Below, in pieces: positions 40,330 to 54,275 of a stretch of DNA of 64,000 nt. Origin of the DNA: Acidithiobacillus thiooxidans ATCC 19377 (lineage in GTDB: Bacteria; Pseudomonadota; Gammaproteobacteria; Acidithiobacillales; Acidithiobacillaceae). Within the stretch, counting starts at the first letter, position 1. Each line of letters starts with the position of its first letter. The translations under genes were made by a program, and so were the position numbers. The notes under the pieces are model-generated. The model was given only the letters and a program-made list of their open reading frames with translations. It had not been told where the DNA came from and searched no databases. The stretch lies in assembly GCF_009662475.1 (NCBI RefSeq), contig NZ_CP045571.1, positions 1,362,501-1,426,500 of the forward strand, read 5' to 3'.

Positions 40330-40405
40330 GCCGGTATAGCTCAATCTGGTAGAGCGCTGGTCTCCAAAACCAGATATCGGGGTTCAAATCCCTGTGCCGG
40401 TGCCA
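40330..40405 (+). tRNA. tRNA-Trp (CCA)
   Basis: Acceptor GCCGGTA/TGCCGGT with two G-U pairs, anticodon loop CTCCAAA reading CCA, T-loop TTCAAAT, encoded 3' CCA. First gene of the array. Confidence 0.92.
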
Positions 40406-40419
40406 TTTTTTTATTTTTG

Positions 40420-40500
40420 AGCGGGAAAATAGACTGGTCTTACGCTTAGCTTGGCTTCATACGCCAGGAGACGCCGTTCGAGCCGGAATTCCGCTACCCA
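40420..40500 (+). tRNA. Degenerate tRNA-Met-like (CAT)
   Basis: AGCGGGA at 40420 can pair with TTCCGCT at 40489, and TGGC-TTCATAC-GCCA forms an anticodon arm reading CAT. A TTCGAGC T-loop is present but its stem is only three pairs and the D-arm is poor; the 3' end reads ACCCA. Looks like a decayed or strongly diverged initiator/elongator tRNA-Met. Confidence 0.35.
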
Positions 40501-40670
40501 TTCAATGCCGTTGCCCCGACTGGTAGGGCCTTCTAAAAAATCGTCCATCCACGGAATTCTGCAACGGCGCCCATTCTGGATACACGCGAACGGACCATAT
40601 TGCCGGGCGGTATTCGAATATCGGTGGTCCCGCCGTGGTGTTTTTCATGGAAAACACCTACCGGGCATTT

Positions 40671-40745
40671 TGGGGTGTAATTCAGCGGTAGAATGACCGA
40701 CTGTTAATCGGTTCGTCGCAGGTTCGAGCCCTGCTGCCCCAGCCA
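40671..40745 (+). tRNA. tRNA-Asn (GTT)
   Basis: Acceptor TGGGGTG/TGCCCCA, anticodon loop CTGTTAA reading GTT, T-loop TTCGAGC, discriminator G, encoded CCA. Confidence 0.93.
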
Positions 40746-40903
40746 ATCGCTTGAGGTTGCCATCAGGGTAGATGGGTTCATTTCGGCCAGTCCCGCCGAA
40801 CCCCTCAGCCAAACCAGAGACATGCGGGAGGAAGGTCTTTGGGGGAGTACCGCCCGCGCTTAAACCTTGCGTTTTGCCGGTTTCGCCCGAAAAACCGGCA
40901 CTT

Positions 40904-40980
40904 CGGAATATAGCCTAGTCTGGTAAGGCGCTTGGTTTGGGGCCATGAGATCGCAGGTTCGAATCCTGCTATTCCGACCA
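40904..40980 (+). tRNA. tRNA-Pro (TGG)
   Basis: Acceptor CGGAATA/TATTCCG, anticodon loop TTTGGGG reading TGG with one T-T mismatch in the stem, T-loop TTCGAAT, ACCA end. A GCCGGTTT...AAACCGGC hairpin lies just upstream. Confidence 0.9.
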
Positions 40981-40986
40981 TTTTTT

Positions 40987-41076
40987 GGAAGATTGACCGA
41001 ATTGGTAAGGAACCGGACTGCTAATCCGGCGATCCCGAAAGGGGTTTTGCAGGTTCGAGTCCTGCATCTTCCGCCA
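40987..41076 (+). tRNA. tRNA-Ser (GCT)
   Basis: Class II. Acceptor GGAAGAT/ATCTTCC, anticodon loop CTGCTAA reading GCT, variable arm GATCCCGAAAGGGGTTT, G73 and CCA. Confidence 0.93.
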
Positions 41077-41084
41077 TTTTCTAT

Positions 41085-41122
41085 GGAGTTGTGGGTGAGT
41101 GGCCGAAACCATCCGACTTTGA
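41085..41122 (+). pseudogene. 5' half of a class II tRNA split by a TnpB element
   Basis: GGAGTTG and a Ser/Leu-like D-arm lead into CCGACTTTGA, the 5' side of an anticodon arm, where the element's end hairpin begins. The matching 3' half lies at 42531-42590; GGAGTTG pairs perfectly with its CAACTCC. Confidence 0.8.
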
Positions 41123-42530
41123 CTTCCTCCTCGCCCTGAAGGACGAGGATTCCTTCCTGCCAGCAGCGGCCCTACATCAGCCGCTTCTCTCCGCTACTTT
41201 GGAGAACAGGCTACCCCGGCGTGCCCCGCCGTTGACTGCAATCCTCTTGCGAGGATGTTCTGTGCCGCATTTACGTCGGCATGTGCTTCATGCCCACAGT
41301 GCAGGCAATGGAATACCGCCTGATGGGGGCGATTCCCGGCATCCACCACCCCGCAAACCGAACAGGTTTGCGAGGTATAGGCCGGATTCACCAAAAATAG
41401 CATGCCACCGGCCCATTGGAGCTTGTAGTCCAGTATCCGTTTGAGTAGGCCCCATCCCTGATCAAGGATGGATTTGTTCAATCCTGATTTCTGCCGGATA
41501 TTGCGTCCGGGTTTATCCACGGTACCCTTTGCGGATGCCGTCATGTTCCGCACTTTCAGGTCTTCCAGCACCACGACCGCGTGGTTTTTGCTGATGGTGG
41601 TGCTGACCTGATGGAGCACGTTTTTCCGCATTTCCGCGATACGCTGGTGCAATCGCGTGATTTTGGCCTTCTGTTTCTTCCAGTTGGCCGAATACTTCAC
41701 TTTGTGCGCGAGCTTTCTTTGCTCCCGCGCTAGTTTCTTCTGCAAATCCCGATAGGCGGTTACTGGCAGAAACATGGTGCCATCGGACAATGTAAGCAGG
41801 TTTGCTACTCCCCGGTCGCCACCGACCGCTGTAGTGGAGGGATGCACGGGGTCCGGCACTTCTTTCTCGGTCTGTATGGCGACATACCAGTGACCACCAG
41901 CCCTGCTGACGGTGACATTGCGGATTTCGCCGCCAATGATGCAGGATTTGCGAAATTTCACCCAGCCAATACATGGCAGGAAGATTTTGGGGAGCACCTT
42001 GCGGCCATCCCGATCAACGGGATTCAGATCAAAGTGAATATGGCCCGGTTCCGGGTAGCGCATGCTGTCGTGGACGAACTTCTTTTTGAAATTTGGGAAG
42101 TTTTTAGCTGAGTTCTTATTGAATGCCTCTTTCAACGCCTGCGTCAGATATCTGAGCGTCTGCTGTTGCGGCATCGACGGGGATTCTGCGAGAAACCCAA
42201 AGGCTTCCGAATTGCGCCAAGACGTGAGTAGTTCGCACAGGCCGGCATAATTCAGGGTGCCGCAATGATGATCGAGATAGCTCTTCTGCACGGCCAGCGC
42301 TCGGTTCCAGACGAAGCGCACGCAGCCGACCGCACGGGCCAGAAGATTTTCCTGCTCCGGAGTGGTTTCGAGACGGTAGCGCACGGCTTTGCGAATCAGC
42401 ATGGTGTATAATTATACAGTGATAGTCATTGACTGGCAAAATTTATCGGTAGGCAGACGGCTTCAACGGCGTTGAGCCGTCTCGCCGCCGCGCTATCCAT
42501 CCCCGGCCTGAACGCCGGGGCTTTTCGCGC
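41123..42530 (-). mobile_element. IS200/IS605-type element with tnpB only (IS1341-like)
   Basis: One tnpB gene on the minus strand, no tnpA. Both ends are hairpins: TCCTCG...CGAGGA near 41127-41152 (right end, after the tnpB stop) and CCCCGGC...GCCGGGG at 42501-42520 (left end). Boundaries are approximate because such elements make no duplication. On the minus strand the sequence flanking the left end reads ATTTACC, containing TTAC, the tetranucleotide target used by IS608-type elements. Confidence 0.8.
41194..42402 (-). CDS. tnpB: TnpB RNA-guided nuclease
   Basis: 402 residues, full length and intact. RuvC acids are Asp196 (GGDRGVANL), Glu280 (VVVLEDLKVRNM) and Asp376 (HADVNAAQNI); the zinc ribbon is C347/C350 and C366/C369. 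TnpB proteins cut double-stranded DNA next to a transposon-associated motif, guided by an RNA made from the element's right end, which here would overlap the 3' end of the gene and read out toward the tRNA 5' half. A TATAAT lies about 12 bases before the ATG. Confidence 0.92.
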   Translation of the reverse strand: MLIRKAVRYRLETTPEQENLLARAVGCVRFVWNRALAVQKSYLDHHCGTLNYAGLCELLTSWRNSEAFGFLAESPSMPQQQTLRYLTQALKEAFNKNSAKNFPNFKKKFVHDSMRYPEPGHIHFDLNPVDRDGRKVLPKIFLPCIGWVKFRKSCIIGGEIRNVTVSRAGGHWYVAIQTEKEVPDPVHPSTTAVGGDRGVANLLTLSDGTMFLPVTAYRDLQKKLAREQRKLAHKVKYSANWKKQKAKITRLHQRIAEMRKNVLHQVSTTISKNHAVVVLEDLKVRNMTASAKGTVDKPGRNIRQKSGLNKSILDQGWGLLKRILDYKLQWAGGMLFLVNPAYTSQTCSVCGVVDAGNRPHQAVFHCLHCGHEAHADVNAAQNILARGLQSTAGHAGVACSPK

Positions 42531-42590
42531 TTTTTGGTAAATCGGATTTCCTCTGGAACACGCAGGTTCAAATCCTTGCCAACTCCACCA
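42531..42590 (+). pseudogene. 3' half of the split class II tRNA
   Basis: GGTAAATCGG (3' side of the anticodon arm), a long variable arm ATTTCCTCTGGAACACGC, T-loop TTCAAAT, acceptor CAACTCC, A73 and CCA. The T-stem is slightly imperfect. A73 and a long variable arm favour Leu; the D-arm favours Ser. The anticodon cannot be restored with certainty. Confidence 0.8.
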
Positions 42591-42594
42591 TTTA

Positions 42595-42687
42595 AGGGGC
42601 GTAGCGCAGCCTGGTAGCGTACTCGGTTCGGAACCGAGTTGTCGCGGGTTGCGCACTGCAAGGGTTCAAATCCCGCCGTCCCGACCA
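42595..42687 (+). tRNA. tRNA-Pro (CGG) with a 16-nt hairpin insertion in the T-arm
   Basis: Anticodon arm CTCGG-TTCGGAA-CCGAG reads CGG. The acceptor pairs except A1-G72. The T-stem GCGGG/CCCGC is interrupted: between the two strands lies TTGC-GCACT-GCAA, an extra hairpin flanked by a direct repeat GGGTT. Without 16 bases the gene is a normal 77-base tRNA-Pro. Confidence 0.8.
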
Positions 42688-42715
42688 ATTTCACTTTTCT
42701 TGAGAGGAGATTATC

Positions 42716-42862
42716 GTGAAGATCAACCGTGTTTTTCCGTCCCGTTCCTATACAGATCAAGAATTGCGCGAGACTTTAAGCGCCATGCGAGCATTGATTC
42801 GCCAGGCGAGAAGCGTAGCTGAACCCATATTGAAACAATGGGACAAACAGCTTCATCGATAA
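42716..42862 (+). CDS. Small ORF inside the tRNA array (48 aa)
   Basis: GTG start with GAGAGGAGA six bases upstream. The product is basic and helical (YTDQELRETLSAMRALIRQA...EPILKQWDKQLHR). No family. The strong ribosome site between two tRNA genes suggests real translation. Confidence 0.5.
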   Translation: MKINRVFPSRSYTDQELRETLSAMRALIRQARSVAEPILKQWDKQLHR

Positions 42863-42873
42863 TTGACCACTAC

Positions 42874-42947
42874 GCGGGATTGGCACATTGGTTGCGCACT
42901 GGCTTCCCAAGCCAGCCAAACGAGTTCGATTCTCGTATTCCGCTCCA
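42874..42947 (+). tRNA. tRNA-Gly (CCC)
   Basis: Acceptor GCGGGAT/ATTCCGC, anticodon arm CTGGC-TTCCCAA-GCCAG, T-loop TTCGATT, T73, CCA. Confidence 0.93.
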
Positions 42948-42967
42948 CTTAAAAAAGAATGTTTTGT

Positions 42968-43044
42968 GGTGGTTGTAGCTCAGTTGGCAGAGCCCTGGAT
43001 TGTGATTCCAGTTGTCGCGAGTTCGAGCCTCGTCAGCCACCCCA
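42968..43044 (+). tRNA. tRNA-His (GTG)
   Basis: Anticodon arm CTGGA-TTGTGAT-TCCAG. Acceptor GTGGTTG/CAGCCAC plus the His-specific extra G-1 (42968) opposite C73, then CCA. Confidence 0.95.
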
Positions 43045-43061
43045 AAGCCTTTTTAATTTCA

Positions 43062-43138
43062 GGTCCATGAGCTCAGTTGATCAGACCTCCCGCCTGTCAC
43101 GCGGGAGGTCGCCGGTTCAAGCCCGGCATGGATCGCCA
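43062..43138 (+). tRNA. tRNA-Asp (GTC)
   Basis: Acceptor GGTCCAT/ATGGATC, anticodon arm CCCGC-CTGTCAC-GCGGG, T-loop TTCAAGC, G73, CCA. Confidence 0.94.
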
Positions 43139-43142
43139 ATTT

Positions 43143-43218
43143 GCCGGTTTAGCTCAGAGGTCAGAGCGTCCGCTTTGTAAGCGGAGGGTCGTCGGTTCGA
43201 CTCCGACAATCGGCTCCA
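43143..43218 (+). tRNA. tRNA-Thr (TGT)
   Basis: Acceptor GCCGGTT/AATCGGC, anticodon arm TCCGC-TTTGTAA-GCGGA, T-loop TTCGACT, CCA. Only one base from the next tRNA. Confidence 0.94.
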
Positions 43219-43219
43219 A

Positions 43220-43308
43220 CCCCCACTGGTGGAAGTGGTAGACACACCTGGTTAAGAACCAGGCGCCGCATAATTGGCATATAGGTTCGAGCCCTATGAG
43301 GGGGACCA
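43220..43308 (+). tRNA. tRNA-Leu (AAG)
   Basis: Class II. Anticodon arm CCTGG-TTAAGAA-CCAGG, so the anticodon is AAG with A at position 34. Acceptor CCCCCAC/GAGGGGG has one A-A mismatch; A73, CCA. Bacterial Leu(CUU) decoding normally uses GAG or TAG, so A34 here is unusual. Confidence 0.9.
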
Positions 43309-43351
43309 TTTCAGTTGATGCACAATCAGCAAGCACTCAAGGAGATTCACC

Positions 43352-43579
43352 ATGAAAAAGGAAACGCTGGTCATTCGACCGGAAAAGCACAAGCGGCGAA
43401 TAGGGGTAATGCCGACCTACGCGCAGCGGGACCGCACGAAGTACACGCGCAAGGTGAAACATCGCGGTCGTGAAACCCATACTGGAGAGCGACACGGAAA
43501 GAATTTTGCGGATCTTTTTCCGAGTCGCTTTTGTAGTCAAGGCCGGATTAGCTCAGACGGAAGAGCAGACGCCCCGTAA
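43352..43579 (+). CDS. Small basic protein in the tRNA array, 3' end overlaps a tRNA
   Basis: 75 codons starting MKKETLVIRPEKHKRRIGVMP, with AAGGAGATT before the ATG. Very basic (Lys/Arg/His about 35 percent), so RNA or DNA binding is plausible. The last 13 codons and stop lie inside tRNA-Thr(CGT), so either translation reads into the tRNA gene or the natural stop has been lost. Confidence 0.5.
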   Translation: MKKETLVIRPEKHKRRIGVMPTYAQRDRTKYTRKVKHRGRETHTGERHGKNFADLFPSRFCSQGRISSDGRADAP

Positions 43580-43617
43580 GCGTCAGGTCCGCAGTTCGAT
43601 TCTGCGATCCGGCACCA
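43542..43617 (+). tRNA. tRNA-Thr (CGT)
   Basis: Acceptor GCCGGAT/ATCCGGC, anticodon arm GACGC-CCCGTAA-GCGTC, T-loop TTCGATT, A73, CCA. Confidence 0.94.
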
Positions 43618-43642
43618 AAATTTGAGAGATTTTTTTGATTAT

Positions 43643-43716
43643 TCAGGGTTCGTCTAATGGTAGGACAGCGGCCTTTGACGCCGCGAACCGTGGTTCGAGT
43701 CCACGACCCTGAACCA
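43643..43716 (+). tRNA. tRNA-Gln (TTG)
   Basis: Acceptor TCAGGGT/ACCCTGA, anticodon arm GCGGC-CTTTGAC-GCCGC, T-loop TTCGAGT, A73, CCA. Confidence 0.94.
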
Positions 43717-43731
43717 ATTTTGAAAGGCTTC

Positions 43732-43821
43732 GGAAAAGTGGCAGAGTGGTTTAATGCGTCCGGCCTGAACCCGGAAGGTCGTCTTAACGGTCCGTGAGTT
43801 CGAATCTCACCTTTTCCGCCA
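43732..43821 (+). tRNA. tRNA-Ser (TGA)
   Basis: Class II. Acceptor GGAAAAG/CTTTTCC, anticodon arm TCCGG-CCTGAAC-CCGGA, long variable arm, G73, CCA. Confidence 0.94.
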
Positions 43822-43827
43822 ATTTTT

Positions 43828-43902
43828 GCACGATAGTCTGATGTGGTGAGGTGGTAGGTTAAAAACCTGCTTAGGTCGGTTCGATTCCGGCATCGTGCTC
43901 CA
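43828..43902 (+). tRNA. tRNA with anticodon AAA (Phe-type, atypical)
   Basis: Acceptor GCACGAT/ATCGTGC is perfect. The anticodon arm GTAGG-TTAAAAA-CCTGC puts AAA at 34-36, which would read UUU/UUC if A34 is modified. T-loop TTCGATT with stem GTCGG/CCGGC. The D-arm (TCTGATGTGGTGAGG) pairs poorly and the discriminator is T, not the A normal for Phe. A regular tRNA-Phe(GAA) is present at 44665. Confidence 0.65.
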
Positions 43903-43906
43903 TTTT

Positions 43907-43982
43907 GGAACTGTAGCTCAGAGTGTAGAGCGTCTGGCTCATAACCAGGTGGTCGAAGGTTCGAGTCCTTCCGGTTCCACCA
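43907..43982 (+). tRNA. tRNA-Met (CAT)
   Basis: Acceptor GGAACTG/CGGTTCC, anticodon loop CTCATAA, T-loop TTCGAGT, A73, CCA. Could be elongator Met or Ile2. Confidence 0.9.
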
Positions 43983-44016
43983 TAATTTAGGTAACGATAA
44001 TAAGGCCATTTTTAAC

Positions 44017-44091
44017 GCATCGTTAGCTCAGCGGTAGAGCATTCGACCGATAATCGAAAGGTCGGTGGTTCGATTCCACCCCGATGCACCA
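44017..44091 (+). tRNA. tRNA-Ile (GAT)
   Basis: Anticodon arm TTCGA-CCGATAA-TCGAA. Acceptor GCATCGT/CCGATGC with one mismatch at 7-66; A73, CCA. Confidence 0.92.
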
Positions 44092-44092
44092 A

Positions 44093-44165
44093 GGACAATT
44101 AGCTCAGTTGGGAGAGCGGCGGGGTCATAATCCGCAGGTCGCCAGTTCGATTCTGGCATTGTCCT
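44093..44165 (+). tRNA. tRNA with anticodon CAT (Met or Ile2), no encoded CCA
   Basis: Acceptor GGACAAT/ATTGTCC, anticodon arm GCGGG-GTCATAA-TCCGC, T-loop TTCGATT, T73. The 3' bases are CCG, shared with the 5' end of the next tRNA, so CCA must be added by the nucleotidyltransferase. Confidence 0.85.
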
Positions 44166-44167
44166 CC

Positions 44168-44242
44168 GCGTTCTTAGCTCAGCGGTAGAGCGTCGTCTTT
44201 ACACGGCGAATGTCGTAGGTTCGATCCCTACAGAACGCACCA
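44168..44242 (+). tRNA. tRNA-Val (TAC)
   Basis: Acceptor GCGTTCT/AGAACGC, anticodon arm TCGTC-TTTACAC-GGCGA, T-loop TTCGATC, A73, CCA. Confidence 0.93.
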
Positions 44243-44247
44243 TTTTT

Positions 44248-44322
44248 GCGGGAATAGCTCAGTGGTAGAGCACAACCTTGCCAAGGTTGGGGTCGCGAGT
44301 TCGAGCCTCGTTTCCCGCTCCA
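44248..44322 (+). tRNA. tRNA-Gly (GCC)
   Basis: Acceptor GCGGGAA/TTCCCGC, anticodon arm CAACC-TTGCCAA-GGTTG, T-loop TTCGAGC, T73, CCA. Confidence 0.95.
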
Positions 44323-44323
44323 C

Positions 44324-44400
44324 GCCCATATAGCTCAGTTGGACAGAGCGCACGGCTACGAACTGTGAGGTCGCGGGTTCGACTCCTGCTATGGGCACCA
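44324..44400 (+). tRNA. tRNA-Arg (ACG)
   Basis: Acceptor GCCCATA/TATGGGC, anticodon arm CACGG-CTACGAA-CTGTG (A34 would become inosine), A73, CCA. Confidence 0.94.
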
Positions 44401-44404
44401 ACAC

Positions 44405-44479
44405 GCTTCTATCGGCTATCGGTCAGGCCCCAAGGTTCTCAACCTTGTGAGGCGGGTTCGACTCCCGCTGGGAGCACCA
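44405..44479 (+). tRNA. tRNA-Glu (CTC)
   Basis: Acceptor GCTTCTA/TGGGAGC with G-T pairs, anticodon arm CAAGG-TTCTCAA-CCTTG, T-loop TTCGACT, A73, CCA. Confidence 0.9.
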
Positions 44480-44485
44480 AACCAT

Positions 44486-44562
44486 GCTCTCATCCAGCTA
44501 GCGGTCTAGGCGGCCGGCCTTTCAAGCCGGAAACGCGGGTTCAAATCCCGCTGGGAGCACCA
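44486..44562 (+). tRNA. tRNA-Glu (TTC)
   Basis: Acceptor GCTCTCA/TGGGAGC, anticodon arm CCGGC-CTTTCAA-GCCGG, T-loop TTCAAAT, A73, CCA. Shares its 3' third with the neighbouring Glu(CTC) gene, pointing to duplication. Confidence 0.9.
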
Positions 44563-44574
44563 ATTCTGTATATA

Positions 44575-44658
44575 GCCCTGATGGTGGAATGGCAGACACA
44601 CCTGGTTCAGAACCAGATGCCGAAAGGTGTGCCGGTTCAAATCCGGCCCAGGGTACCA
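44575..44658 (+). tRNA. tRNA-Leu (CAG)
   Basis: Class II. Anticodon arm CCTGG-TTCAGAA-CCAGA, T-loop TTCAAAT, A73, CCA; acceptor GCCCTGA/CCAGGGT with one mismatch. Confidence 0.9.
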
Positions 44659-44664
44659 AATCAT

Positions 44665-44740
44665 GCAGCGATAGCTCAGTTGGTAGAGCACCGGTCTGAA
44701 GAGCCGGGTGTCGCAAGTTCGATTCTTGCTCGCTGCGCCA
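44665..44740 (+). tRNA. tRNA-Phe (GAA)
   Basis: Acceptor GCAGCGA/TCGCTGC, anticodon arm CCGGT-CTGAAGA-GCCGG, T-loop TTCGATT, G73, CCA. Confidence 0.92.
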
Positions 44741-44790
44741 ATTTTTTTCTATGCGTACTCCATGAAAGCCCGTGGGAGTTGCTGGCGGCC

Positions 44791-44863
44791 TTGGGTGTCG
44801 CCGCGTGCGAAGCCGCAAGACCCAGGCCTGGGCCAGGATGGTTCAAGTCCACGGCCCAACCCA
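44791..44863 (+). other. tRNA-like sequence of 73 bases, not a standard cloverleaf
   Basis: TTGGGTG at the 5' end can pair with GGCCCAA near the 3' end, a TTCAAGT T-loop sits at the right distance and the end reads CCCA. The D-arm lacks GG and no clean anticodon arm forms; CCCAGG/CCTGGG is a palindrome instead. Probably a decayed tRNA of the array. Confidence 0.25.
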
Positions 44864-44864
44864 A

Positions 44865-45086
44865 TCATGCAGGACCAATATCGGGATCCATGTCCAGGGG
44901 ATCACCCCACTCATGCCGCAGTTCACCACGACGTGCAGCCGGTACAGAAATGCCATCAAACAGGTCTTTAAGTGGTGCAAGTTCTTTCGGCAGGGAGGCA
45001 ATACTGGAGAGTGATTCGATGATTTTTCCAGCTTCCCGTTCCGTCATCGTCGCCACAACGGTTTGATCTTTGACGTTAACCTGCAT
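44865..45086 (-). CDS. Small hypothetical protein (73 aa) in the array
   Basis: AAGGAGCATCCC precedes the ATG. MQVNVKDQTVVATMTEREAGKIIESL then an acidic tail DPLDMDPDIG. Overlaps the upstream minus-strand gene by 11 bases, so they form a two-gene unit running against the tRNAs. No family; phage or ICE-type. Confidence 0.55.
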   Translation of the reverse strand: MQVNVKDQTVVATMTEREAGKIIESLSSIASLPKELAPLKDLFDGISVPAARRGELRHEWGDPLDMDPDIGPA

Positions 45087-45288
45087 GGGATGCTCCTTGA
45101 TAAAAGGACTTCGGTTGGCGGAATGTATTCTCCATGGAAAGCACCGCTTCCGCAGTGAGATAGGCTAAATCCAGTGTGGAGCGATTCAACTCCCCCGCTT
45201 TTTTGAGTAAGACATCTGAAACCTTATCAGCCTCAGATTTGCTCATAATGAGCCGAAAACCACCGTTGGACTGTTTTTCCAATTTCAT
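45076..45288 (-). CDS. Small hypothetical protein (70 aa) in the array
   Basis: GGAGG lies five bases before the ATG. MKLEKQSNGGFRLIMSKSEADKVSDVL then LDLAYLTAEAVLSMENTF; one predicted helix-rich domain. First gene of the minus-strand pair. Function unknown. Confidence 0.55.
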   Translation of the reverse strand: MKLEKQSNGGFRLIMSKSEADKVSDVLLKKAGELNRSTLDLAYLTAEAVLSMENTFRQPKSFYQGASHAG

Positions 45289-45415
45289 CAGAACCTCCAG
45301 AATCGAATACACATTGATGTAGACCACAAAACCTGAATGGCGTTCTGACCGGTTGAGGCCCAATGCCATTGTCCGCATCTTGGTTGTGTGCGAATCCGTT
45401 TTGAATTTTTTCATG

Positions 45416-45490
45416 ACCCGCATGGTGGAATGGGAAGACACGATGTTTGCGTAAGCAGTTGCTGGTTCGAGTCCGGCTGCGGGTCCCCAT
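45416..45490 (+). other. Degenerate Leu-type tRNA
   Basis: GACCCGCA pairs over eight bases with TGCGGGTC. The D-arm TGGTGGAATGGGAAGACAC is Leu-like and the T-arm GCTGG-TTCGAGT-CCGGC is good, but the anticodon arm does not form (GATGTTTGCGTAAGCAG) and the variable arm is missing. Likely deleted or decayed. Confidence 0.4.
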
Positions 45491-45504
45491 CATTGACCAG
45501 TTTT

Positions 45505-45607
45505 GCAGGAATAGCTTACGGAAAGCGTCCGGGCGTGAAAGCTCGGGAGAGGTGTTGGGTGATGGCGCATAAGCCCGATCAGCGTTCGACTCGCACGTCC
45601 TGCTCCA
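45505..45607 (+). other. Aberrant tRNA of 103 bases with an extra hairpin in the T-arm
   Basis: Acceptor GCAGGAA/GTCCTGC, D-arm GCTT-ACGGA-AAGC, an anticodon arm with a six-base loop GTGAAA, and T-loop TTCGACT with CGCAC after it. Between GTG and CG of the expected T-stem (GTGCG/CGCAC) lie about 28 extra bases that fold as TTGGG...CCCGA. T73 and CCA are present. Confidence 0.45.
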
Positions 45608-45675
45608 TCATACTGAAATACCGCGAGGGGCCAACATGCAACACGTTGATTGCGATATGAATTACAGAAAATAAT

Positions 45676-45697
45676 GCCCCAAAACGGGGCTTTAGGG
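45676..45697 (+). terminator. Possible terminator between tRNA groups
   Basis: GCCCC-AAAAC-GGGGC followed by TTTAGG; short, GC-rich stem with a weak T-run. Confidence 0.35.
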
Positions 45698-45774
45698 GCC
45701 AATGCTAGGTAATCGATTGTTTATTAAACCATTTAAATCTAAAATGCTTGCAAATGACACATCAATCTCCCCTT

Positions 45775-45851
45775 GCCCCTTTAGCTCAGTGGACCAGAGC
45801 ATCCGGCTTCGAACCGGATGGTCGGGAGTTCGAACCTTCCAAGAGGCACCA
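45775..45851 (+). tRNA. tRNA-Arg (TCG)
   Basis: Anticodon arm TCCGG-CTTCGAA-CCGGA, T-loop TTCGAAC, A73, CCA; acceptor GCCCCTT/AAGAGGC with one C-A mismatch. Confidence 0.92.
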
Positions 45852-45852
45852 T

Positions 45853-45929
45853 GCGGTTGTAGCTCAGCTGGATAGAGCATTCGCCTTCTAAGCGAAGTGT
45901 CGCAGGTTCGAGTCCTGCCCACCGCGCCA
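45853..45929 (+). tRNA. tRNA-Arg (TCT)
   Basis: Anticodon arm TTCGC-CTTCTAA-GCGAA, T-loop TTCGAGT, G73, CCA; acceptor GCGGTTG/CCACCGC with one mismatch. Confidence 0.92.
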
Positions 45930-45933
45930 ATTC

Positions 45934-46010
45934 GCCCCTGTAGCTCAACGGGATAGAGCGTTCGCCTCCTATGCGAAGGGTTGTCGGTTCGACTCCGGCC
46001 AAGGGCACCA
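45934..46010 (+). tRNA. tRNA-Arg (CCT)
   Basis: Anticodon arm TTCGC-CTCCTAT-GCGAA, T-loop TTCGACT, A73, CCA; acceptor GCCCCTG/CAAGGGC with one mismatch. Last gene of the array; three Arg genes stand together. Confidence 0.92.
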
Positions 46011-46101: not shown

Positions 46102-46656
46102 GTGGCAGCCATACTTCGATTGGACAGCGCTGGTAACCCTCTGCATTGGATTCACCACGAAGAAGCGGCCTGTTATTACGCCAAGGGCATGGTGGCCTGG
46201 ACCATCGGTGAACCATTCCGAATTTTGCATGGTGGCCGCAACCGCCTCACTGGGTTGCTTTCGTACATGGATATCCATCCCGTCATTGCTATTCATGGCG
46301 TACAGCATGCCACACGCAATCAGTGGCGAGCCCCATCGCTCACCAATCCGTCCCTGTTCCGGCGCGATGGGCACCTGTGCCTGTACTGCGGCAAACCTTT
46401 CAGCGACCATCACCTGACCCGTGACCACGTTATCCCATCGTCCAGAGGGGGCAAGGACACCTGGACCAATGTCGTATCCGCCTGCAAGCGTTGCAACAAT
46501 CACAAGGGAGCCAGAACTCCCGAGCAGGCCGGGATGAAGTTGCTGGCAGTGCCCTACACGCCCAATCCGTACGAATATCTGTATCTGACAGGTCGAAACA
46601 TTCTGGCCGATCAAATGGATTTTTTACGGTCTGGATTCAACAAGCTGCAGGCTTAA
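46102..46656 (+). CDS. HNH endonuclease
   Basis: 184 residues. GTG start with AAGGAGG six bases upstream. The ββα-metal domain is CLYCGKPF...LTRDHVIPSSRGGKDTWTNVVSACKRCNNHKG, with both zinc CxxC pairs, the catalytic His in DHVIP and the Asn. The N-terminal half has no recognised domain. Such stand-alone HNH nucleases accompany tRNA arrays of phages and mobile elements. A GGGATGCC/GGCATCCC hairpin at 46050-46079 lies in its leader. Confidence 0.88.
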   Translation: MAAILRLDSAGNPLHWIHHEEAACYYAKGMVAWTIGEPFRILHGGRNRLTGLLSYMDIHPVIAIHGVQHATRNQWRAPSLTNPSLFRRDGHLCLYCGKPFSDHHLTRDHVIPSSRGGKDTWTNVVSACKRCNNHKGARTPEQAGMKLLAVPYTPNPYEYLYLTGRNILADQMDFLRSGFNKLQA

Positions 46657-46727: not shown

Positions 46728-46768
46728 TTTCCTCCGTATACTTATGTTCAGAGTTGGAGGTACGGATC

Positions 46769-47587
46769 TTGACCTGCTTACCCCTTGACCACCGTTCGCA
46801 GAAATGGATTAAACAAGGTCGGGGAAGGGGCTCAGGAAAAGATTACCAACCCTGGTTGACTGTCAGAGACCTGCCTTCTGCAGGACGGTCTCATAGAATC
46901 TGGGGAGTCCAGACTCAACGGACCCACCATCTGCTGTCGGATCTCGAACTGGCGGCTTTTTTTCTATTTGACTGGAATCCATCTGTCGCTGATATCCGCG
47001 AGCAATATCCTCTCCGCTTAGAGGATACCAGTGAGCTTGCCACGCAAGCACAGATTCGCCATCCGGAAGTACGAGGACAAGTTCAGATCATGTCCACGGA
47101 TTTTCTAGTGGATACCAATAAACCAGAACTTCCAAGAATGGCTATTCAGGTAAAAACCTCTTCAGATCTTTGCAACCCTAGAACCATAGAAAAACTGGAA
47201 CTTGAACGACAATATTGGGAATTAAAGGGAGTTCCGTGGTATCTGCTGACGGAAAAACAAATACCCAAGACCGTCACCAAGAACATTGCCTGGCTGTATC
47301 CCGCCCAACTGGTTCTGGATGAGATCGAAAATACTCTGAATATGACACCAATTTATTTAGGCTTCTTTACAAAGCATCCGATGTTACAGATTTCTCAGGC
47401 TGCAATGATGCTTGATCAAGCTTATGCACTGTCTCCAGGAGAGTCCTTGCAAAGGATCCGCTCGCTTTTAGCTCTGAGAGTTTTCTTGTTCGACCTCAGA
47501 AAACCTTGGTCAAAGCTGGCTGTTGGAGATCTACAAGCATCTTCAGATCTCGATTCACTGAGGAACTCTTATGTTGCGAATCAATGA
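46769..47587 (+). CDS. tnsA: TnsA endonuclease of a Tn7-like transposon
   Basis: About 272 residues from a TTG start that has GGAGG eight bases upstream (another TTG lies at 46754). Restriction-enzyme-like active-site residues are seen in LSDLELAAFFLFDWNP (Glu), IMSTDFLVDT (Asp) and AIQVKTSSDL (Gln-x-Lys). TnsA cuts the 5' ends of the element so that it moves by cut-and-paste. It overlaps tnsB by 17 bases. Confidence 0.92.
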   Translation: MTCLPLDHRSQKWIKQGRGRGSGKDYQPWLTVRDLPSAGRSHRIWGVQTQRTHHLLSDLELAAFFLFDWNPSVADIREQYPLRLEDTSELATQAQIRHPEVRGQVQIMSTDFLVDTNKPELPRMAIQVKTSSDLCNPRTIEKLELERQYWELKGVPWYLLTEKQIPKTVTKNIAWLYPAQLVLDEIENTLNMTPIYLGFFTKHPMLQISQAAMMLDQAYALSPGESLQRIRSLLALRVFLFDLRKPWSKLAVGDLQASSDLDSLRNSYVANQ

Positions 47588-49646
47588 TGTCGTAACATTC
47601 GAAGGAACCCGGTATCGCATTCTTGATGTATCGAAAATTCGATACACTTGGATTAAGATCGACTCCGATAAGTCTTTGCCGGAACGGATTTCACTGGCGG
47701 AAGTAGATGAGCTTATCCATGCTGAGGCACTAAAAAAAATTGACGATCCCTTTTCGCATCTTGCAGTTCAGCTTCCGGAGCATGGCTCGGGAGCACAGCA
47801 AACCCGCGACAAACGTTTCGCGATTATCGAGCCTTTAATACATCAGCCGGACATCTGTTTTCGAAGTGGCCGAGGCGCACTGGTTCAGCAGATCGCAAAT
47901 GACTCCGGGACGGCTAAAAAAACAATATATGCCTATCTTCGCCAATATTGGCAGCGAGGTTGCATACCAAACGCACTCTTGCCAGATTATTATAAGTCAG
48001 GTGGGCGCGGAAAAAAAAGAACAGCCACGAAGAAAAAATTAGGGCGTCCGAGACGTATAGCGCACGGTACGGGGGCAATAATAGATGACAGCATTGAACG
48101 CATGTTTCGCATTGTGCTTGATCGGCATTATCTGACTGAAAAAAGCCATTCTCTGCCTTATGCTCATCGGCGCTTCGAGGATATGTTCGAAACAGCTCAC
48201 CCGGATATATCGAAAGAGAATTTCCCGACCGTCGCCCAACTGCGATATTTCTATGAACGTGAATATGTCCAGCCTGAACGTATCCGTCTGAGGGTCAATA
48301 AGATCGAGTATCAGAAGGACATCAGGCCGTTACAGGGAACAGCTACAGCCGAAGTTCACGGTCCTGGTGCGCGATACGAAATCGACGCTACTATTGCAGA
48401 TATTTATCTGCTCTCCGCTGACCGACAAAAGATCATTGGCCGACCAACCTTGTATGTAGTTGTCGATGTTTACAGCAGATTGATCGCCGGTTTTTATGTG
48501 GGGCTTGAAAATCCCTCTTATGTTACCGCCATGTTGGCACTGGTGACGGCCATGACTGATAAGTCTCAGCTATGCCATTCTTTCGGCTATGACATAGAAC
48601 CAGAAGATTGGCCATCCATGGGGCTACCGGACGCCATTTTGGCAGATCGTGGAGAACTGCTTGGTCATCAGATTGAATACCTGGAGCAGTCCTTTGGAGT
48701 CCGAATTGAGAATACGCCGCCGTATCGTGGGGATGCGAAGGGTATCGTTGAACGGCACTTCCGGACCATTCAAGCGGACTTCAAACCATTTGCGCCAGGA
48801 GTAGTTGCGGGCACCATCATTAAGAAGCGGGGCGGGAAAGATTATCGATTGGACGCAACACTCACCTTGGCAGATTTCACTAAAATCATTATCGGCTCCA
48901 TTCTGCATCGCAACCAGAGTTCGGTATTGGTCAAATATGATCGCGATCCGGATATGCCCGACACCCTCGCTCCGGTGCCCCTCAATATCTGGCGCTGGGG
49001 TATTCAAAATCGCAGTGGACGACTGCGTAACACGTCTGAGGCGGCGTTGAGGCTGGCAATGCTGCCGCGTCAAAAGGCGACGCTTTCCGATTTTGGTATT
49101 CGGTGCTTTGGTGCCTATTACACCTGTAATGAGTTGCTGGCATCCGGTTGGTTACATAGAAGCGGGCGACAGCGGCCCGGCTCATTTGTGGCCGCTTACG
49201 ATCCTTCAGTAGCCGATATCATTTATGTCTTCCCTGATGTATCCAAATCGGATTATTGGGAATGCTCGCTCACCGATCGCTCAAGGGAATTCAGGGGGCG
49301 AACGATGTGGGAGCTCTGGGATAGTCAGCAGCAACAACGAAAATCAACAGCGACAGCTAAATTAGAGGAGGCAGAAAGTAAAAGAGTGCTGGAAAACGTG
49401 ATTCAGGAAACGATCCAACGAGCGGAAAAATTACGTCCTTCTTCCTTTGGCGAATCGAAAACAGAAACTTTGGCTGGCATCAACCAAAACCGCCGGGATG
49501 CCCGTGAGCAGGAACGCCAGCAACGACGTGTGGATAGCCAATCAACAAAGCCGAAACCCAAAGCAGAGGTCAGGTATTTGACTGAACAACCCGAAAATGT
49601 TGCTTTCCCAGATTTTCTGGATGATCTGTTTGGAGATGATATATGA
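47571..49646 (+). CDS. tnsB: TnsB DDE transposase of a Tn7-like transposon
   Basis: 691 residues, close to Tn7 TnsB. N-terminal DNA-binding domains (GRPRR segment near 158) are followed by the integrase core with Asp272 (YEIDATIAD), Asp359 (DAILADRGELLG) and Glu394 (GIVERHFRTI). The C-terminal tail is charged and ends EQPENVAFPDFLDDLFGDDI, a likely TnsC-contact hook. It binds the end repeats and joins 3' ends to the target. Overlaps tnsC by four bases. Confidence 0.94.
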   Translation: MLRINDVVTFEGTRYRILDVSKIRYTWIKIDSDKSLPERISLAEVDELIHAEALKKIDDPFSHLAVQLPEHGSGAQQTRDKRFAIIEPLIHQPDICFRSGRGALVQQIANDSGTAKKTIYAYLRQYWQRGCIPNALLPDYYKSGGRGKKRTATKKKLGRPRRIAHGTGAIIDDSIERMFRIVLDRHYLTEKSHSLPYAHRRFEDMFETAHPDISKENFPTVAQLRYFYEREYVQPERIRLRVNKIEYQKDIRPLQGTATAEVHGPGARYEIDATIADIYLLSADRQKIIGRPTLYVVVDVYSRLIAGFYVGLENPSYVTAMLALVTAMTDKSQLCHSFGYDIEPEDWPSMGLPDAILADRGELLGHQIEYLEQSFGVRIENTPPYRGDAKGIVERHFRTIQADFKPFAPGVVAGTIIKKRGGKDYRLDATLTLADFTKIIIGSILHRNQSSVLVKYDRDPDMPDTLAPVPLNIWRWGIQNRSGRLRNTSEAALRLAMLPRQKATLSDFGIRCFGAYYTCNELLASGWLHRSGRQRPGSFVAAYDPSVADIIYVFPDVSKSDYWECSLTDRSREFRGRTMWELWDSQQQQRKSTATAKLEEAESKRVLENVIQETIQRAEKLRPSSFGESKTETLAGINQNRRDAREQERQQRRVDSQSTKPKPKAEVRYLTEQPENVAFPDFLDDLFGDDI

Positions 49647-51298
49647 CACTACCCAAAGGTATGGTTCAGGCGATTTACAAGGATACCGGGATCAGTCAAT
49701 ACCAAGGAAATCCACTCATTGAAGCGCTGCCGCCGATCTTGGACAGGCGTCAGTTAAAGGAGGGGTTATCAGGCCAAATTGCGTTTCGACCAACGGATAT
49801 TTATCTTGATGGTCCGACCCGCATTCATGTTATCTCCCAATTACTCGATAATTTTTTCCAGCCGCTATCCCGTCACATCGAGCTGGAGTCGAAATTATCG
49901 GTCATGCTTCGGCAAGGGTATGTTGGCAGAAATCTGGCGACTGGCGAGCTGAATGCTCACATCCAGAATGGTTATGAGCGTGTCATGCAGGGTGATTTAG
50001 CCGTTTTCCGGTTCGAGCATGTGGAGTCCACGGCTAAGAGCCTGGCTTTCATTGGCTGTTCCGGGTCAGGCAAGACAAGTTCGTTGAATCGTATTTTGGC
50101 CACCTATCCGCAATTGATCTATCACGAAACGTACAACTTCACTCAGATTGTTTTCCTCAAAATTGACTGCCCGCATGACGGTTCCCTGAAAAGCCTTTGT
50201 CATAATTTTTTTCGTGAAATCGACGCGGTGCTCGCCACCAATTACGTACGCCGCTATGTAGAAAAACGGCACAGTGTGGAAACCCTGATTGCGGTAATGG
50301 CGCATATTGCTAATACGCACGCGATTGGCCTGTTGGTGATTGATGAAATCCAGCATTTGAGTGTTAAGCATTCCGGTGGTGCAGAGCGTATGCTCAATTT
50401 TTTCGTCACTCTGGTGAATGAAATTTCAGTCCCGGTTGTCATGGTGGGGACACCAAAAGCCAGATCTGTCTTTGAGCTGGACCTGCGATCCGCGCGTCGC
50501 GGTGCAGGTTTTGGTGCAATTCTGTGGGAGCCATTGAGCAAGCCTTCAGGCGATCAGGTAATATCACGGACCGAATGGGGAGCCTTCACCAACCGTTTGT
50601 GGAAATATCAGTGGCTGACCAAAGCATCACCCGATGTGACCGATGAAATTCGTGATACCTGGTATGATCTTTCTCAAGGCATTATGGATGTCGTCATCAA
50701 GCTATTTGTTCTGTCACAAATCCGGGCTGTTGTCACAGGCGTTGAACGCATTACCCAGAGCTTGATGAGAAAAGTTTATCAGGATGAGCTAAAGCCCATC
50801 CATCCTATGATTGATGCATTGCGGTCCGGTGATGTCACAAAAATAGCCCGTTACTCCGACCTGACCATTCCCGACGTGGATAGAAAAATACTCGAACTGG
50901 GCCATCTGCTGCGTTCCAATCAGGAACGCATTGATACTGCCGTCAAGTATGGGGGAAATGAACAAGCCATTCGATTACACAATATGCTGGTCGATATGGG
51001 GTATGTCTCTGAGTTGCTTGAACCTCTGATCAATAGGGCTTTTGAAAATCACCCGGGACTTGTGATGAAGGATCTTATGCCGCTGATTCTCTCTTGGTAT
51101 CAGAGCGCAGAGATAGAAAAGACAGCATCATCAAAGCCGAAAATGAAGGCGATGAAAAAAGCTGATTGGCATACCCTGGACTCAAACGATTTGCGTTTTT
51201 TATTTTCGCAGTCCGCCAATGAGGAAGCCTTCCTAGAATCACTGAGTCGCGAAGGTTTGCTTTTCGATGCCGAGAACTGGATCAATTCCTTTGGGTGA
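49643..51298 (+). CDS. tnsC: TnsC AAA+ target-selection ATPase
   Basis: 551 residues. Walker A is GCSGSGKTS at 138-146 and Walker B LLVIDE at 230-235, followed by VMVGTPKA (sensor-1 region). The length is that of Tn7 TnsC rather than the short Tn5053/CAST type. TnsC links TnsD or TnsE target recognition to TnsAB. ATGA overlap with tnsB, TGATG overlap with tnsD. Confidence 0.93.
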   Translation: MTLPKGMVQAIYKDTGISQYQGNPLIEALPPILDRRQLKEGLSGQIAFRPTDIYLDGPTRIHVISQLLDNFFQPLSRHIELESKLSVMLRQGYVGRNLATGELNAHIQNGYERVMQGDLAVFRFEHVESTAKSLAFIGCSGSGKTSSLNRILATYPQLIYHETYNFTQIVFLKIDCPHDGSLKSLCHNFFREIDAVLATNYVRRYVEKRHSVETLIAVMAHIANTHAIGLLVIDEIQHLSVKHSGGAERMLNFFVTLVNEISVPVVMVGTPKARSVFELDLRSARRGAGFGAILWEPLSKPSGDQVISRTEWGAFTNRLWKYQWLTKASPDVTDEIRDTWYDLSQGIMDVVIKLFVLSQIRAVVTGVERITQSLMRKVYQDELKPIHPMIDALRSGDVTKIARYSDLTIPDVDRKILELGHLLRSNQERIDTAVKYGGNEQAIRLHNMLVDMGYVSELLEPLINRAFENHPGLVMKDLMPLILSWYQSAEIEKTASSKPKMKAMKKADWHTLDSNDLRFLFSQSANEEAFLESLSREGLLFDAENWINSFG

Positions 51299-51556
51299 TG
51301 GTTGTGTTGAATTTTCCTATACCTTATGCAGAGGAATTGCTGTATAGCACCGTCGCAAGAGCGGGTGTTCGGCTAGGTCATACTAGCCCCAAGCAACTGT
51401 TGGATGAAGTCTTCGAATCTCGTAGTGTTATTGCAACGATAGACTTACCGAGCCATCTCGCAACGGTCTCACGCTGGCTTCCTGGTGAATATACGCCTGA
51501 GAAACTCATCTATAGCCATACCTTATTTCCGCTTTATGCCCCTTTTATTTCAGAGG
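51298..51556 (+). pseudogene. tnsD: tnsD (TniQ family), 5' part
   Basis: MVVLNFPIPYAEELLYSTVARAG and LIYSHTLFPLYAPFISE are the N-terminal TniQ landmarks (p.e.El.yS.laR.g, sHTLfP.YaPF). The IS256 element follows at codon 87. Removing the element and one 9-bp target copy joins this in frame to 52981, giving a 517-residue TnsD, the usual length. As it stands the frame stops inside the IS. Confidence 0.88.
51548..51556. repeat. 9-bp target duplication of IS256 element, left copy
   Basis: TTTCAGAGG here and at 52972-52980 flank the IS exactly. IS256 elements make 8-9 bp duplications. Confidence 0.88.
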
Positions 51557-52971
51557 GAGCTATGCTCGAAAGTGGTGTACGGGCGCATTACAACTGGCTT
51601 GAATGAGGTGGCGTACTGTTGCTACAAAGGGTTTCCGACTCAAAGAGCAACATAAGGAGTACGCCGTGGAAAAGAATACCGTAATAGCAGGTGGGATGGG
51701 AGAGTTGGGTCTGGGCATTGAAGGGATACTTCGACGCGCGGCACGCGCTCTGATTGAGCAGGCCATAGAGGCAGAGGTGGCGGTATTGCTGGAAGAATTT
51801 GCGACGGTGCGGATGGTTGATGGGCGTCAGGCGGTCGTGCGTAATGGGCATCTGCCGGAGCGCGAGATCATGACCGCTCTGGGTCCGGTACCCGTCAAAG
51901 TACCCAAGGTGCGGGACCGCTCAGGATCGGGGATCAAATTCAATTCGGTACTGGCGCCTCCGTATGTACGCAAATCACGAACGGTAGCCGCTACAGTACC
52001 TTGGCTCTATCTGCATGGGGTGTCTTCCGGCCACATGCAGGAAGCCCTTTCCATTTTGCTGGGTGATGAGGCCAAGGGACTTTCACCTGCGGTGTTGGGA
52101 CGTCTCAAGGCGGAGTGGGCGCAAGAGTATGCCCATTGGCAACACCGCTCCCTACAGGGAAAGCGCTATGCTTACTGGTGGGTAGACGGTATTTATACGA
52201 ACCTCCGTGCGGAGGAGGATCCGCGTATCTGCCTGCTGGTGATTATCGGCGTGACGGCAGAGGGCAAGAAAGAGCTGGTCAGTGTCAGTGACGGCCTGCG
52301 CGAATCCAAAGCTTCCTGGCTGGAGATCCTGCGTGACCTGCAGGCGCGCGGTCTGGAGACGGCCCCTTTGCTCGCCATTGGGGATGGTGCCATGGGGTTT
52401 TGGGCCGCACTGGATGAAGCCTATCCCGAAACGGGTCAGCAACGCTGCTGGGTGCATAAGACCGCCAACATTCTCAACGAACTTCCCAAAGCCCAACAGA
52501 GCAAAGCCAAGGCAGCGTTGCAGGAAATCTGGATGGCCGCCAATCGCCAGGCTGCGGAAAAAGCACTGGACGTGTTTGTGCGCAATTACCAGGCAAAGTA
52601 TCCCAAGGCTGTGGCTAAACTGGAAAAAGATCGGGCTGAATTACTCGCTTTCTATGATTTTCCGGCCGAACACTGGCGGCATATCCGGACCACCAATGCC
52701 ATTGAGTCCACCTTCGCTACGGTACGCCACCGGACTACCCGGACGAAGAACTGTGTATCACGCAGCAGCTTTCTGGGATTGGGTTTCAAGATGCTGCAGC
52801 AGGCTGAAAAACGCTGGATTGGGATTTATGCTCCAGAGAAAGTCCTGCAGCTTTTTGCAGGGGTGAAATTTATCGATGGCATACCGGCTAACCTAACCCT
52901 GCCGGATGATCAACAGACCGCCGCCTGATCTATGTCAGAAAATGCTTATACACCAGATTTGACTATAGCTC
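51557..52971 (+). mobile_element. IS256-family insertion sequence inside tnsD
   Basis: 1415 bp with ends GAGCTATGCTCGAAAGTGGTGTA (23 bases, 51557 on) and an imperfect inverted partner reading GAGCTATAGTCAAATCTGG at the right. A perfect 9-bp duplication flanks it. One transposase, same direction as the tns genes. Confidence 0.9.
51666..52928 (+). CDS. IS256-family transposase
   Basis: 420 residues from a GTG with AAGGAG six bases upstream. LPEREIMTALGPVPVKVPKVRDRSG, YWWVDGIYTNLR, LLAIGDGAMGFWAAL and RTTNAIESTFATVRHRTTRTKNC hold the DDE residues and the family signature near the C-terminus. Intact. Confidence 0.94.
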   Translation: MEKNTVIAGGMGELGLGIEGILRRAARALIEQAIEAEVAVLLEEFATVRMVDGRQAVVRNGHLPEREIMTALGPVPVKVPKVRDRSGSGIKFNSVLAPPYVRKSRTVAATVPWLYLHGVSSGHMQEALSILLGDEAKGLSPAVLGRLKAEWAQEYAHWQHRSLQGKRYAYWWVDGIYTNLRAEEDPRICLLVIIGVTAEGKKELVSVSDGLRESKASWLEILRDLQARGLETAPLLAIGDGAMGFWAALDEAYPETGQQRCWVHKTANILNELPKAQQSKAKAALQEIWMAANRQAAEKALDVFVRNYQAKYPKAVAKLEKDRAELLAFYDFPAEHWRHIRTTNAIESTFATVRHRTTRTKNCVSRSSFLGLGFKMLQQAEKRWIGIYAPEKVLQLFAGVKFIDGIPANLTLPDDQQTAA

Positions 52972-52980
52972 TTTCAGAGG

Positions 52981-54275
52981 ATCGACGGCGTCAGTGCATG
53001 AGGAGGTTGCATCAAGGAACTCAGGGAGCCGTACATCTGGTATTGGGGGTTGTTGCCTCTCGCATTAAGTCACCACGTTTTATCCGATACTGTCCAGGTT
53101 GCGTAACCGCTCAGCGTGAACAATATGGTGAGTATTTTTGGCTGAGAGAATGGCAGGTCGCCGGTGTGGAATCGTGCCCCGAACATGGCATGTTGAAGGA
53201 TACGCAGATAGCTCGCCCACTGATTGAAAGGCATCGTTTTATCGCTGCCGCACCTGAATATTGTCATTTTATTAAACAGCAAAAGGGAATGAGGAATTCT
53301 GACTGGGTAGCAACTCAGGTGCGTCAGTTGTTGGCCCGACCTACCCAAGTGTCCCCAAGTTTAGAGCAATGGGCAGCGTACTACCGTAACCTTGCTTGCC
53401 GTCTGTGCCTCTCCCGAGGAAAAGCGCAAATTGACCACGCGTCGATAAGAGATAGGGTACTAATGGCTTGGCCCGCTACTTGGTTAACCAGAAATCGTCT
53501 GATGCCACGTTCTTCGTTTGCCGATGAATCAGACTGGCTGAAAGCAATCTTCCGCAAGCATCGGAAAAGTTTCAATTATCTTCAGCATATTGTGGTTCAC
53601 CAGGCGCTGTTGGGTCGTCACTGGCGGATAGATGACGTGCTCAATGAGGTAAGCAGGACGCCAATCTGCGAAAAGTCCTCGCAAGTTCAGGTGGCTATAC
53701 AAAAGTCCAGCAGCCAAACGCCAGATCAGGAGGTCTGGCGCGAATTGTTGTCCTCCCATCCACCCCAGAAAGCCAGAAAAACTGCATCAGCCCTGTATGC
53801 CCGGCTTTATCGAAATCATCGTGACTGGCTATTGGACATAAATTATCGTCATGCAGAAGGTAAGACAAATACTAACGTACCACGCATCGATTGGGACAAA
53901 CGGGACCGGGAATATCTGCAAGCACTTCGACAACTGGCTACCTTTTTGAAGGCAAACGAACAAGGGCCCAGACGCTCAAAAACCTGCTATCTTCGGCTTC
54001 TCGGCAATTTTTCGACTCTTGAAAAGAACCTTCATCAAATGCCACGTACTTCGGCGTTTCTGGCAGTTAATTCGGAAAGCATCTCGCAGTACCAGATCCG
54101 ACGTTTGCAAAATGCCTATGCGGAGTTGCGAAATCTGTTTGAGTCACCACCGAGGTGGCGATTGCTGCGAAACGCGGGATTAAGTGAAGAACGAATGACA
54201 GGACCTGCCAGACAATATTTGGAAGTTTTAGTGTGTCGGAGTACAGAATATGAAGTTAAAAGGGGTAGAAAATAA
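52981..54275 (+). pseudogene. tnsD: tnsD (TniQ family), 3' part
   Basis: Continues the interrupted gene with DRRRQCMRRLHQGTQGAVHL. The CCCH zinc finger is FIRYCPGCV...GVESCPEHG, followed by the long C-terminal region that in Tn7 binds the attachment site. The open frame extends back to 52932 only because the IS end is read through. The end overlaps tnsE by 26 bases. Probably not made as functional protein. Confidence 0.85.

Follow-up and report, generated by a model that had tools for sequence, protein, structure and literature searches.

The tRNA-Pro(CGG) gene at 42595-42687 (plus strand) of the window, the whole 64,000-nucleotide stretch of Acidithiobacillus thiooxidans ATCC 19377 DNA that was analyzed, carries 16 extra bases in its T-arm. 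We think it fairly likely that this is a redundant array tRNA gene which a small, complex, templated insertion has broken or severely impaired.

Structure of the interrupted gene

ARAGORN calls the gene at 93 nt, or 77 without the insert, with an encoded CCA end. The Rfam tRNA model (RF00005) scores it at 42.5 bits and gives it a T-loop of 21 bases as against five in the model. The T-arm reads GC GGGTT GCGCACTGCAA GGGTT CAAATCCCGC, the two copies of GGGTT lying at 42646-42650 and 42662-42666 (plus strand). An earlier note, made from the sequence alone, had described 16 extra bases with TTGC-GCACT-GCAA between GGGTT repeats; ARAGORN, Rfam, and the sequence itself confirm this, and place TTGC-GCACT-GCAA at 42649-42661. 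Because GGGTT is repeated at the ends of the insert, six breakpoints are equivalent (tRNA positions 50/51 to 55/56). A split of the T-stem after its third base pair, as that note had it, is therefore a valid placement but only one of the six; the border of stem and loop (53/54) is another, and in this placement the insertion reads TTGCGCACTGCAAGGG (42649-42664, plus strand).

The D-stem, the anticodon arm with its CGG anticodon, the T-loop, and the CCA end are intact, which counts against decay and is what a recent event or a gene in use would show. The 16 nt interrupt what would be a 5-bp T-stem closing a 7-base T-loop. The description of the remaining gene as an otherwise good tRNA-Pro applies to all but its acceptor end, where A at position 1 creates an A1·G72 mismatch. 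All eight other tRNA-Pro compared have C1, and the array gene lacks the C1-G72 pair, with A73 present. G72 and A73 are part of the identity set of ProRS.

Copies of the gene in relatives

Related arrays of partly similar gene order are found in three genomes, G010 (L053), G013 (L054), and G014 (L055). Alignment with the tRNA-Pro(CGG) of similar arrays, a check proposed in the earlier note, yielded a syntenic gene in G014 (L055, 11087-11164) that follows a tRNA-Tyr and has no insert; the same Tyr-then-Pro order holds in the window provided that tRNA-Tyr is what was split at 41085-42590. ARAGORN called no tRNA-Pro(CGG) in the array stretches of G010 (12,000 of 17,128 contig bases) and G013 (14,001 of 32,033 contig bases). 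The chromosomal tRNA-Pro genes with CGG (in L094), GGG, and TGG anticodons are intact and none has the insert. A search of 96 genomes with the 93-base gene produced some match in 76, and among the matches listed the full-span ones from G034, G076, and G060 must lack the insert because they are 76 bases long. In a comparison covering one strain of the source species, the insertion would be explained most simply as having arisen in this lineage, in an expendable copy of the gene.

The earlier note had named intact copies in relatives, as a sign of a recent slippage mutation, among the things that would count against its reading. In part the comparison does count against it, the insert being absent from the syntenic G014 gene and from the chromosomal tRNA-Pro(CGG). 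Simple slippage does not account for the insert, since 8 of the 16 bases are unexplained by duplication and match a neighboring tRNA gene. The insertion is best read as a recent, templated micro-insertion.

Origin of the insertion

All 16 bases can be described as an 8-base tandem duplication of GGGTTCAA (second copy at 42662-42669, plus strand) and an 8-base patch, GCGCACTG (42651-42658, plus strand), inside the first copy. The patch is identical to part of tRNA-Gly(CCC) (42874-42947), and together with the adjoining GGTT it makes up 12 bases matching that gene, 243 bases downstream in the same array. This 12-mer, GGTTGCGCACTG, starts at 42647 and has one other occurrence on either strand of the window, at 42890-42901 in tRNA-Gly(CCC), on the same (plus) strand; the proposed donor segment spans D-arm sequence and the start of the anticodon stem. 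The site thus combines a GGTT microhomology with 8 nt identical to a nearby donor, as expected of a template switch.

The insertion is most likely the product of a replication template switch between tRNA genes, the event, donor, and direction all being deduced from the sequence. During copying of the Pro gene, the DNA strand would have switched at GGGTT to the GGTT of the downstream tRNA-Gly(CCC) and copied GCGCACTG from it. Having rejoined the Pro gene at CAA, it would have slipped back 8 bases and copied GGGTTCAA a second time. The short patch, local duplication, 4-base microhomology, and nearby donor are those of microhomology-mediated template switching and templated insertions; unlike in those systems, the process is here reconstructed from one end product in a bacterium.

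Random 11-nt novel segments were covered equally well by array tRNAs in 0.125% of cases when matched for composition, 0.14% under a Markov model, and 0.077% when drawn from the non-array window. Among random pieces of related-array tRNAs, 9.3% match equally well, which is not significant, and for this reason a tRNA origin of the patch is better supported than tRNA-Gly(CCC) as its exact donor, the latter being less certain. The full two-part account, in a test devised after the sequence had been seen, fitted 19 of 300,000 composition-matched segments. We also compared 306 tRNAs pairwise (4003 pairs) within 13 sets, the chromosomal one and those of 12 arrays or loci. Two pairs had out-of-register matches of at least 12 nt, namely the Pro and Gly genes here and a pair in G013 that shares an 18-mer; matches of 11 nt occurred in four pairs, and a 12-mer is only just longer than these. 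A further 12-mer of the gene, TTGTCGCGGGTT, also has an out-of-place match, on the minus strand at 47801, to which no meaning could be attached; chance does therefore produce 12-base matches in the window.

The 5-base repeat at the ends of the insert also invites reading it as the footprint of a mobile element, in which GGGTT would be a target duplication of 5 bp and the other 11 bp a remnant. Tn7-like elements make 5-bp duplications, and homologues of tnsA, tnsC, tnsD, and tnsE with a Mu-type transposase in the tnsB position lie downstream of the array (46754-55842). We nevertheless regard a footprint as distinctly improbable, given that the would-be remnant GCGCACTGCAA agrees with a tRNA gene more closely than expected under the non-tRNA nulls, that no exact match of 10 bp or more overlapping it was found in the Tn7-like region, and that the 8-base duplication explains the 5-bp repeat equally well. 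A sequencing or assembly error, to which the short repeat might lend itself, is barely credible in a single-contig genome (3,415,726 bases), and sequencing errors do not usually add 16 nt of which 8 are new.

The insert as an exact 20-mer has one match in the genome contigs, in Pontibacter DNA that is not tRNA-like, which is consistent with chance. This 20-mer and a 22-mer from the D/anticodon region of the gene both have no match in the viral contigs, and no plasmid or phage record covers 80% of the array query, with many partial matches of tRNA genes.

Predicted folding and fate of the gene

With the insert, the lowest-energy fold (-43.5 kcal/mol) is not a cloverleaf. It pairs a segment of the D-arm (42604-42613, plus strand) over 10 bp with 42645-42654, part of the insert included. 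The best constrained cloverleaf stands at -34.6 kcal/mol, a gap of 8.9 kcal/mol; once the insert is removed, the cloverleaf becomes the lowest-energy fold (-32.3 kcal/mol). A gap of 8.9 was reached by 11 of 500 shuffled inserts (mean 1.6) and by 5 of 500 window 16-mers put in its place (mean 1.1). On these energies, which leave out modifications and proteins, the insert probably makes the tRNA misfold: a transcript, if made, could pair its D-arm with the T-stem and insert and abandon the cloverleaf. The TTGC/GCAA hairpin of the earlier note is available as a 4-bp stem, seen in a constrained fold at -30.2 kcal/mol and, when the T-arm is folded by itself, in a suboptimal structure. It lies outside the lowest-energy fold of the whole gene, and that predicted fold speaks against a tidy extra arm.

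The gene might still specify a functional tRNA, the enlarged T-arm being tolerated and the 93-nt tRNA decoding CCG, or the product might have taken on a new role as a tRNA-like RNA. Alamos et al. reportedly described such a tRNA-like RNA in 2018 in the array cluster of A. ferrooxidans. The intact remaining arms, anticodon, T-loop, and CCA fit this possibility, as do six tRNA genes of G013 with a 17-nt D-loop insert, which keep 7 of 7 acceptor pairs in five of the six genes and 5 of 5 T-stem pairs in all six (acceptor and T stems being those counted). These G013 genes are not all sound, however, since by eye one has TGC for TTC at the start of its T-loop and one a scrambled-looking anticodon region. 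Against a working extra arm there are further the cloverleaf 8.9 kcal/mol less stable than the optimum, the loss of C1-G72, and the chromosomal tRNA-Pro(CGG), the presence of which makes the array gene unnecessary. According to an extract of one published account (PMC7609411), the 7/5 layout of acceptor and T-stem is moreover closely conserved, tRNA-Sec and mitochondrial tRNAs being among the exceptions. We think a functional product unlikely.

Removal of the 16 bases would leave a standard cloverleaf, A1·G72 aside, and the insert could on that ground be a miniature intron excised during maturation. As in genes with tRNA introns (archaeal bulge-helix-bulge or bacterial group I), extra bases interrupt a complete tRNA gene; here, by contrast, no archaeal-type splicing enzymes and no ribozyme were found, and the size is wrong. 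The families of EndA (PF01974) and RtcB (PF01139) have no match in the source genome or in G013, with positive controls in 4 and 9, respectively, of 14 named genomes, and splicing is unlikely because neither RtcB nor an archaeal-type tRNA endonuclease was found. Rfam at the gathering threshold detects only the tRNA at the site and no group I or II family, and a ribozyme would need far more than 16 nt. An intron is very improbable. By eye, the predicted folds show no bulge-helix-bulge. Of the three fates that the earlier note had offered (processed, tolerated, or dead), a dead or decaying gene is thus favored.

We infer that the gene has probably lost its function; most likely it is decaying, and either crippled or no longer functional, within a tRNA array of ICE type. 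It resembles the tRNA pseudogenes and tRNA-like genes of mobile elements in being redundant and structurally damaged yet otherwise recognizable, and differs in that the damage is not confined to point decay or truncation but includes a short insertion that matches another tRNA gene of the array. Such a fate is ordinary for genes of this kind. The case would offer a tidy, readable example of copying between tRNA genes in the decay of an accessory array, in which neighboring tRNA genes can serve as templates for damaging one another. Because automatic annotation calls the damaged gene a tRNA-Pro, array counts may overstate the number of working tRNA genes.

The tRNA array and its setting

ARAGORN finds 27 tRNA genes, the tRNA-Pro(CGG) gene included, in the 5.7 kb at 40330-46010 (plus strand), as against 45 chromosomal tRNA genes, a density and setting that qualify the region as a tRNA array unit. 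The array is of a kind held to be horizontally acquired. Its genes have a median RF00005 score of 60.7 bits (27 genes, two of the scores being taken from the separate Rfam search of the window) versus 65.7 bits for the 45 chromosomal genes (one-sided P 0.0035), and acceptor-stem mismatches number seven in the 27 array genes versus two in the 45 chromosomal ones. Like the array units of A. ferrooxidans (ICEAfe1) and A. ferrivorans CF27, it is a dense accessory array beside a full chromosomal set, the T-arm insertion distinguishing it from the array of G014. An extract of the CF27 genome description counts 73 tRNA genes on the chromosome, places 26 of these in an array inside an island-rich segment of about 325 kb, and, citing Tran et al., describes that array as horizontally acquired and subject to rearrangements, deletions, insertions, and duplications (PMC5468388).

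A probable tRNA-Tyr(GTA), its halves read by eye, is split by an OrfB/TnpB (IS605-type) element at 41085-42590, with the TnpB gene at 41194-42402 (minus strand), which gives the array two broken tRNA genes. The end of this element contains a stretch of 142 bases that recurs at no fewer than three further sites of the genome. An open reading frame of 48 amino acids (42716-42862) lies between the Pro and Gly tRNA genes; it is preceded by GAGAGGAG and has no Pfam match. A tRNA-Phe with an AAA anticodon (43828-43902) scores only 32.2 bits; a gene resembling it, with the Cys anticodon GCA, occupies the matching place in G010 (L053, 6475-6548). Directly downstream of the array is an HNH endonuclease gene (46102-46656), followed by the Tn7-like genes at 46754-55842, with TnsA, TnsC, TnsD/TniQ, and TnsE domains; the homologues of tnsC and tnsD are separated by a gene for a mutator-family transposase.

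D-loop inserts and other oddities of related arrays

The main interest of the tRNA-Pro(CGG) feature lies in the oddities of the related arrays. An insert of 17 bases recurs in six array tRNA genes of G013 (Trp, Phe, and four Leu). It always occupies one and the same D-loop position, immediately following G18G19 (AG in one Leu gene), and comes in three sequence variants (L054, G013:C77; genes at 1853, 9642, 9752, 10025, 10128, and 10236). The predicted folds of these genes are mixed. With up to two mismatches, the 17-mer is found at seven places in its genome, four in the array contig and three elsewhere, with four matches for the control; the assembly is fragmented, with 880 contigs and 7% contamination. 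It also occurs exactly in four viral contigs. A pattern for these inserts hit 1 of 29 genomes of the taxonomic family, and a D-loop insert pattern for Leu genes hit 6 of 274 genomes of the class, compared with 4 for reversed-pattern controls, one of the six being a normal tRNA-Leu start by eye.

We do not claim the window insert as a member of this family, the resemblance being weak: the best local score is 9, reached by 44 of 5000 shuffles, as against 12 for tRNA-Gly(CCC), reached by none of 5000. The notion that a piece of the G013 tRNA-Trp had been copied into tRNA-Leu was likewise rejected, since the Trp call was truncated by ARAGORN and both genes carry the same 17-base insert.

A base other than U at position 33, which is normally invariant (positions as assigned by ARAGORN), is present in 15 of 111 array tRNAs versus none of 45 chromosomal ones, being C in 14 and G in one. 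The window array has three among 27 tRNAs (43542-43617, 43732-43821, and 44017-44091), and the arrays of the relatives have 5 of 28, 3 of 22, and 4 of 34. Thr, Ser(TGA), Ile, Gln, and Ala tRNAs lack U33 in more than one array, often in two or three. We considered C33 in the array tRNA-Thr as lineage-specific decay and dropped this explanation, as C33 recurs in the same tRNA types of related arrays. Some array oddities, then, are not decay.

A broader reading would hold that arm-sized inserts are recurrent and partly selected in mobile arrays, altered tRNAs being kept as decoys or for resistance to tRNA-cleaving defenses and the inserts spreading by short-homology copying. Its instances would be the T-arm insert of the window, the D-loop family of G013, and the non-U33 tRNAs of all four arrays. 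We consider this quite unlikely; the D-loop inserts and the non-U33 excess would matter if those tRNAs were functional. The titles and openings of abstracts listed in the literature hold no report of the T-arm insertion or of the D-loop family, and a prior description is possible.

Several other unusual genes were seen by eye in the related arrays. In G014, the variable region of a tRNA-like gene of 99 nt (L055, 6493-6591) forms a large hairpin; this gene lies beside tRNA-Arg(ACG), at a place where the window has a normal tRNA-Gly(GCC). G010 contains a Ser-type gene of 125 nt (L053, 5569-5693) and an apparent fusion of the 5' part of a tRNA-Arg(TCT) with the 3' end of another tRNA-Arg (L053, 8503-8634). 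In G013, the anticodon arm of a 90-nt tRNA-Ile (L054, 2268-2357) seems to be tandemly doubled.
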